43,846 nt of DNA from Candidatus Zhuqueibacterota bacterium. Lineage in GTDB: Bacteria; Zhuqueibacterota; Zhuqueibacteria; Residuimicrobiales; Krinioviventaceae. Positions 8,906 to 12,214 of the stretch are shown one piece after another. The position numbers were made by a program, and so were the translations under genes. The notes under the pieces were generated by a model. It saw only the letters and a program-made list of their open reading frames with translations. It had not been told where the DNA came from and did no database searches. The DNA lies in NCBI GenBank assembly GCA_016934825.1, contig JAFGSB010000034.1, positions 1-43,846 of the forward strand. Direction: 5' to 3'. Position 1 is the first letter of the stretch. The number at the start of each line of letters is the position of its first letter.

Positions 8906-8946
8906 TAAAGTACTCCTGTATTTTTTAATATAATTATAATCATAAT

Positions 8947-9129
8947 CATTGATGTCTGGCTAACGGACACCGCAACCTGATCCGGCTTACAAGTTAAATA
9001 AAATCAGGTTATATAATTATAAAAAATTATTGTTTTATAAACAAATCAATTAATGAAAACATATCCGAAAACGTTAATAATATAAATATGTTAAGAGTGT
9101 CGCGTCCGGTTTTAACCGCATACAGTTGA
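8947..9129 (-). mobile_element. Mobile repeat copy 1 (183 bp, palindromic ends, 8-bp duplication)
   Basis: End A (CATTGATGTCTGGCTAACGG...) is at the left, facing the ligase start 41 bp away. End B (...CGCGTCCGGTTTTAACCG, then CATACAGTTGA) is at the right. The element is flanked by ATCATAAT (8939-8946) and ATAATAAT (9130-9137), which match at 7 of 8 positions. Near end A it shares the conserved TTTTATTGAACTTGTAA-like stretch (on the minus strand) with the other copies. It has no coding capacity, so it must be non-autonomous. Confidence 0.8.
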
Positions 9130-9206
9130 ATAATAATATCAATATTAATTAAATAAAGCAAGTTTATTGTAAAACAAAAAAAACAATTGCATAAAAAATC
9201 AAAACA

Positions 9207-9234
9207 AAAAAAAAGCCCCGCAAAAAGCGGGGCT
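9207..9234 (-). terminator. Rho-independent terminator
   Basis: On the minus strand an 8-bp GC-rich stem (AGCCCCGC/GCGGGGCT, 9227-9234 with 9214-9221) has a 5-base loop and is followed by a T-run. It ends the structured RNA upstream of the acyl-CoA ligase, and would also stop read-through from oligopeptidase B. Confidence 0.85.
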
Positions 9235-9381
9235 AAATATCAAGAGTCCAGAGTACCTGGTGCTAACAAGTATCACCGGAGGCCCTTATTATAGATTGAT
9301 TACTAATAAGATCACCTCCCTTCCACAGGGCATCCGTATTCACACCGGAATATTCCCTGTTAATATCCCGGTGCAGCGTGA
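9207..9381 (-). ncRNA. Candidate structured RNA or leader with predicted pseudoknot
   Basis: The minus strand carries TATAAT (9388-9393) followed by about 170 nt of dense complementarity and a strong terminator. Hairpin 1 pairs 9362-9373 with 9343-9354 (12 bp, one G-T). Its 7-base loop (9355-9361) contains ACAGGG, which is fully complementary to CCCTGT at 9330-9325 and would form a pseudoknot. Hairpin 2 pairs GGAGG (9319-9315) with CCTCC (9282-9278) and CTTATTA with TAATAAG inside it. A GGTG/CACC or a CCAG/CTGG hairpin follows. GGAGGTGATC in hairpin 2 is a perfect complement of the usual 16S rRNA 3' tail. I recognise no known RNA class. It may be an independent RNA or an attenuating leader for the acyl-CoA ligase. 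Confidence 0.5.
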
Positions 9382-9427
9382 ATTCATATTATAAACACCC
9401 GTCATGAATGTTTTGTTCCCAAAAAAA

Positions 9428-12009: not shown

Positions 12010-12190
12010 ACACTAGTGTCCGGTTAAACCCGGACGCGACACTCTTAATATATTATTTTATTAAGGTTTTAGGATATGTTTTCATTAATTGATATGTTTG
12101 AAAAAATTAAAATTTTCCAGTTTTATGGTTTGATTTTATTGAACTTGTAAACCGGATCAGGCAGCGGTGTCCGTTAACCGGACACCAGTG
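12010..12190 (+). mobile_element. Mobile repeat copy 2 (181 bp, palindromic ends, 8-bp duplication)
   Basis: End B is at the left (ACACTAGTGTCCGGTTAAAC). End A is at the right (GGTGTCCGTTAACCGGACAC followed by CAGTG) and faces the carboxypeptidase start 24 bp away. Flanks are AATTTAAT (12002-12009) and AATTTAAA (12191-12198), matching at 7 of 8. The end-A interior shares TTTGATTTTATTGAACTTGT with the copy at 39937-40075. It is close to the reverse complement of copy 1. Confidence 0.85.
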
Positions 12191-12214
12191 AATTTAAAAT
12201 ATAGATAAATATAT

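Follow-up and report, generated by a model that had tools for sequence, protein, structure and literature searches.

We analyzed a window of 43,846 nt from a Candidatus Zhuqueibacterota genome, whose minus strand carries a structured RNA at positions 9393-9206. The RNA is flanked by a gene for an oligopeptidase B-like S9 peptidase and a gene for an AMP-binding acyl-CoA ligase, and its elements run in the order TATAAT, P1, loop pseudoknot, P2, P3, and terminator (Table 1). TATAAT, first hairpin with its loop pseudoknot, second hairpin masking GGAGGTGATC, and strong terminator all lie where the original prediction had placed them, except that the first hairpin, given there as 12 bp, is 13 bp long in the minimum free energy (MFE) structure. 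Six loop bases of P1, ACAGGG (9360-9355), complement CCCTGT (9330-9325), and GGAGGTGATC (9319-9310) pairs with GCCTCC (9283-9278) within P2. The window fold was more stable than 200 of 200 dinucleotide shuffles (z = -3.0). The -35 region is weak, with the best promoter-like site in the window scoring 8/12. A repeat with at least 40 genome copies, in a segment of up to ~175 nt, separates the RNA from the ligase gene, in agreement with the mobile repeat proposed earlier. This repeat is found at window positions 8945-9118 and 12021-12191; its copies share 74-88% identity, and several lie at contig ends.

Table 1. Features of the RNA locus, in window coordinates
Feature	Position	Strand	Basis or remark
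-10 box TATAAT	9388..9393	-	Sequence; transcription start expected ~9381-9382
Conserved RNA core	9242..9381	-	Match to models R1-R3; cmsearch 140 bits; about 42 homologs
P1 hairpin	9342..9374	-	MFE 13 bp (9374-9362 with 9354-9342); loop carries CAGGG
Pseudoknot 5' strand CAGGG in P1 loop	9355..9359	-	Pairs with 9326-9330
Pseudoknot 3' strand CCCTG	9326..9330	-	Few nt upstream of Shine-Dalgarno
Extended Shine-Dalgarno AAGGGAGGTGATCT	9309..9322	-	Homolog alignments
P2 hairpin	9278..9319	-	GGAGGT/GCCTCC and CTTATT/AATAAG; masks Shine-Dalgarno and start codon
Mini-ORF	9263..9307	-	Initiator 7 nt past GGAGG; initiator and in-frame stop kept in 40/40 aligned homologs
P3 hairpin	9255..9271	-	Stop codon in loop; 88% of cells paired
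P4 candidate partner GGACTCTT	9242..9249	-	Possible pairing with 9281-9287, in competition with P2, that would leave Shine-Dalgarno exposed
Intrinsic terminator	9206..9234	-	Hairpin 9234-9214 and T run

Covariance models detected about 42 homologs in Calditrichota/KSB1, Ignavibacteria-class, and Fibrobacterota genomes, nearly always one per genome. A DNA search of 99 genomes returned relatives at 68-84% identity, and 10 of these were used to build model R1, which had a single match in each of 18 out of 82 genomes from the window's phylum, a patchy distribution. Named genome contigs were also scanned with a pattern, which yielded 32 records, 21 of them matching R1 (titles include Calditrichaeota, candidate division KSB1, Ignavibacteriae MAG, and Chitinivibrionales MAG); the other 11 were discarded for lack of a model match at E ≤ 1. 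Models R2 and R3 matched 9 of 294 genomes in the class of the Ignavibacteriae MAG and 7 of 168 in the phylum of the Chitinivibrionales MAG, one of these genomes with two copies. Two further homologs, L112 and L113, were found later in a sample of the Ignavibacteriae MAG's phylum and were used in no model, whereas a match at L114 was judged false, as it lacks both Shine-Dalgarno and mini-ORF. All search models described structure and sequence only, with no reading-frame rule. Within the Fibrobacterota phylum, genome G416 carries two copies, and L103-L105 have diverged over much of P1 and the pseudoknot but retain the Shine-Dalgarno, start codon, reading frame, and stop. In G067, a genome of the window's phylum, a 20-nt stretch identical to the P2 region (window 9294-9313, minus strand) occurs at seven places, perhaps by chance or as a repeat.

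In line with the original prediction, the RNA falls in no Rfam family: Rfam 15 gave no match to this RNA at the gathering threshold, either in the window or in 11 homolog loci. Sub-threshold matches to RyhB, GcvB, and PrrF were rejected because they mainly cover the terminator. A plasmid and viral-contig search gave no match, the phage matches being terminator-like 33-nt stretches only, and no published description of the RNA was found in the open-access literature or Rfam. These homologs represent an RNA family absent from Rfam 15 and present in at least three phyla of uncultured bacteria.

Alignment statistics were drawn from 40 distinct homologs, which are related to one another, and the counts below are not independent events. 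Standard pairs occupied 92.2% of cells, compared with 38-52% for slid partners; changes on both sides were seen in 21 of 34 pairs, and the covariation score was 0.376 versus 0.192 for shuffles. Because pairing is conserved across the 40 homologs, a chance origin of the structure is ruled out. P1, P2, and P3 covary strongly. In the P1 consensus helix, all 10 pairs show changes on both sides, as do 4 of 5 pairs in P3. The lower helix of P2 is paired in 98.5% of cells, with 4 such pairs, and the upper helix in 80%, with 2. Pairing in the pseudoknot reaches 99.5% of cells (slid controls, 31-75%). Most of its pairs hardly vary, and the alignment holds one clear compensatory change, not many: in L100 and L101, A-U became G-C (CAGGG/CCCUG to CGGGG/CCCCG). 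Judged by this covariance comparison of homologs, the check suggested with the original prediction, the loop-strand pseudoknot first proposed from the window is real.

The original prediction described GGAGGTGATC as a masked complement of the 16S rRNA 3' end. It is both masked and complementary, yet more than a complement: on the comparative evidence it is the extended Shine-Dalgarno of a conserved 12- to 15-codon ORF, a short reading frame that the prediction had missed. The family form of this Shine-Dalgarno (AAAGGAGGTGATCC / AAAGGAGGUGAUCC) is perfectly complementary to the 16S 3' end GGATCACCTCCTTT, which was taken from a genome of the same family as the window; the window's own genome gave no match to the 16S 3'-end pattern. 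In the window, the mini-ORF reads ATT AGT AAT CAA TCT ATA ATA AGG GCC TCC GGT GAT ACT TGT TAG and would encode the peptide (M)ISNQSIIRASGDTC, its first codon probably being read as Met.

All 40 aligned homologs have an initiator codon followed by an in-frame UAG or UAA, with no stop between. The initiators are AUU (26), AUC (6), AUA (4), AUG (2), GUG (1), and UUG (1), located 5-8 nt past the Shine-Dalgarno core and at 7 nt in 36 of 40; the exceptional spacings are those of L025 and L026 (AUU at 8 nt) and of L104 and L105 (6 and 5 nt). The stops occupy the same alignment position and are UAG in 29 homologs and UAA in 11. UGA, which closes about a third of the long ORFs in the same loci, never closes the mini-ORF (0/40), and its absence hints at RF1-dependent termination or at a UAR-containing P3 loop. 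ORF lengths are 12, 13, 14, or 15 codons, internal indels are all multiples of 3, and L097 differs from L098 by exactly one codon. The 1-nt insertion of L025/L026 falls between the Shine-Dalgarno and the AUU, and starts further upstream in frame were rejected on this ground.

Selection on the peptide was assessed with a permutation test that left out the fixed GGA-GCC-UCC codons. Conservative amino-acid change reached a combined z of 3.8 in frame 0, and the two remaining frames gave -1.2 and -0.7. Serine persists where codons switch between UCN and AGY, as does a C-terminal Arg where they switch between AGR and CGN. The family peptide follows the pattern M-S-S-x-x-x-I-G-A-S-G-E-A-C, and its conservation is partly explained by the RNA, because GGA GCC UCC is fixed by pairing. 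L112 and L113 start with AUG UCU GAU, continue AUG CAG AAG, and finish GGA GCC UCU GGC (GAC or GUA) GCC UG(C/U) UAG, giving peptides that end in GASG(D/V)AC*. Two caveats apply to the start codon: the AU of AUU is base-paired within P2, and any AUN counts as an initiator. Taken alone it is moderate evidence, and the case for the reading frame draws its strength from the combination of features. The conserved RNA structure and the conserved ~13-codon frame are both demonstrable by comparison, as are the terminators, initiator, stop, and frame-specific amino-acid selection. The conservation pattern of the frame is compatible with coding, and the frame has no consistent placement from which to control a main ORF; in comparative terms, the RNA would qualify as an sORF as defined in PMC11109978. 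Peptides this short are missed by gene finders.

The homologs also carry their own transcription signals. Each of the 40 is followed by a terminator-like hairpin and its T-rich tail. Upstream, at a fairly consistent position ~11 nt before the conserved core, are promoter-like sites (often TTGACT/TTGACA-17-TATATT), scoring at least 9/12 in 20 of 40 homologs (mean best, 8.6 of 12 versus 6.8 shuffled). In clade f10 (L045-L048, L050), the terminator is 38-58 nt further downstream. Neighboring genes are unrelated between families, lie on either strand, and are often convergent; shared neighbors are kept within clades only, with none across families. Since all 40 homologs have terminators and their neighbors are unrelated, we regard the element as a free RNA, one of two options in the original prediction, rather than a leader separated from the gene it once served. 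The other option, a riboswitch-like attenuator of the acyl-CoA ligase displaced by insertion of the repeat, would account for the same ligase lying downstream in the window and in a genus mate, for the ferritin-like and phosphoglycerate-mutase-like genes (named from sequence only) downstream in clade f10, and for the riboswitch-like layout of a pseudoknot beside a Shine-Dalgarno. However, another gene intervenes before the ligase in the genus mate, every copy has its own terminator, and the RNA does not form the 5' untranslated region of a consistent gene set. Comparison thus largely refutes such a cis-acting leader, which we consider highly improbable. Size and autonomous transcription would also suit a diverged housekeeping RNA (6S, tmRNA, SRP, and similar), the least likely of all the readings weighed here: besides the lack of an Rfam gathering match, RF00013 was not matched and a separate 6S candidate lies on another contig (C135) of the window's own genome, ARAGORN detected neither tRNA nor tmRNA in the 40 homolog-bearing loci, where tRNA neighbors were likewise lacking, and presence is patchy.

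Two further alternatives were weighed. In one, a dual-function or switch RNA, the RNA itself would be the effector and the peptide secondary: ribosomes on the mini-ORF would melt P2 and P3 and shift the RNA to a further helix, P4, altering stability or target pairing. In P4, GGAGCCUCC of the ORF pairs with an element resembling GGAGGCUCC upstream of the terminator, and outside clade f10 this helix is paired in 78% of cells (slid partners, 38-62%). P2 and P4 share the ORF strand, and in 18 of the 33 homologs outside f10 they lie within 3 kcal/mol of each other (median difference 0.6, against 8.6 in the slid control). The stop codon in the P3 loop and the strong conservation of P1 and the pseudoknot, both outside the ORF, would also fit this account. 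On the other hand, P4 is absent in clade f10, the window favors P2 over P4 by ~5 kcal/mol, and P4 covariation is not clearly above shuffles, for which reason we downgraded P4 from a proven helix and treat it as a hypothesis; a P2/P4 switch is weakly supported. Nor was a conserved unpaired target seed identified, and the amino-acid-level selection suggests that the peptide matters, which makes a dual-function RNA unlikely. The second alternative is a noncoding titrator, whose 10- to 14-nt complement would capture ribosomes or the 16S 3' end and whose frame would be accidental. Along with the exactness of AAAGGAGGUGAUCC, it could appeal to the core variants, most of which still form wobble pairs or better with 16S (R at A, U for C), and to the purine-rich bases that precede GGAGG though unpaired in P2. 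A titrator leaves unexplained the in-frame stop, the multiple-of-3 indels, the AUG, GUG, and UUG codons at the same position, and the frame-specific similarity, and we rate it very unlikely.

The reading that we favor, and consider probable, is an autonomous structured mini-mRNA in which a hairpin and a pseudoknot gate the translation of a micropeptide. A promoter would drive an RNA of about 175 nt that ends at the intrinsic terminator and whose 5' part is an H-type pseudoknot, made of P1 and the CAGGG/CCCUG pairing. A few nt downstream, hairpin P2 encloses an unusually long Shine-Dalgarno together with a start codon that in most homologs is not AUG (AUU in the window); the second strand of P2 comes from codons of the ORF itself, GCC UCC. 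Both P2 and the neighboring pseudoknot would limit ribosome access to an unusually strong Shine-Dalgarno with a weak start codon. Once P2 opens, ribosomes would translate 12-15 codons and stop at the UAG or UAA in the P3 loop; candidate openers are a ligand, a protein, initiation-factor or ribosome status, and the competing helix P4. Three steps of this reading are inferred: that cells translate the frame, that this translation is gated by P2 and the pseudoknot, and that the functional output is the peptide or its synthesis. The masked, mostly non-AUG start suggests tight translation control. A more specific and more speculative version takes the pseudoknot, over-long Shine-Dalgarno, and deliberately weak start codon as a sensing device: a stand-alone switch that would respond to a ligand, or to the status of ribosomes or initiation factors, by releasing the conserved micropeptide, and would control nothing else in cis. 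We hold this version as a tentative possibility.

The proposed mini-mRNA shares parts of its architecture with several known systems. SgrS/SgrT and SR1 are dual-function sRNAs, each an independent small RNA with a terminator and a small ORF. The mini-mRNA resembles them in these respects and differs in that its ORF has only 12-15 codons, with Shine-Dalgarno and start enclosed by a conserved hairpin next to a pseudoknot, and in that it has no known pairing targets. Starts of the infC type use AUU, a near-cognate start codon against which IF3 discriminates. The sigR GTC start is under IF3 control (PMC5472188). Both infC and sigR share the near-cognate start with the mini-mRNA but are long protein genes. 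The nearest architectural relative in the open-access literature is the odc1 motif, a pseudoknot leader with a sequestered ribosome-binding site, a UUG start, and a conserved 11-residue peptide (PMC8632094). Pseudoknot, masked ribosome-binding site, non-AUG start, and short conserved peptide are thus common to both; in contrast to the odc1 short ORF, which directly precedes a main ORF, the mini-mRNA stands alone, is terminator-ended, and has no associated gene. The fthC and ilvB uORF motifs, attenuators of one consistent downstream gene (PMC11109978), likewise combine hairpins, Shine-Dalgarno, short ORF, and intrinsic terminator, the fthC stop often falling in P2, whereas no consistent gene follows the mini-mRNA. 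As outlined in PMC13009471, extended Shine-Dalgarno starts in Staphylococcus aureus share with it a long 16S 3'-end complement and small ORFs; relative to that outline, the extended Shine-Dalgarno of the mini-mRNA differs in being a feature of a single conserved RNA family and masked by structure.
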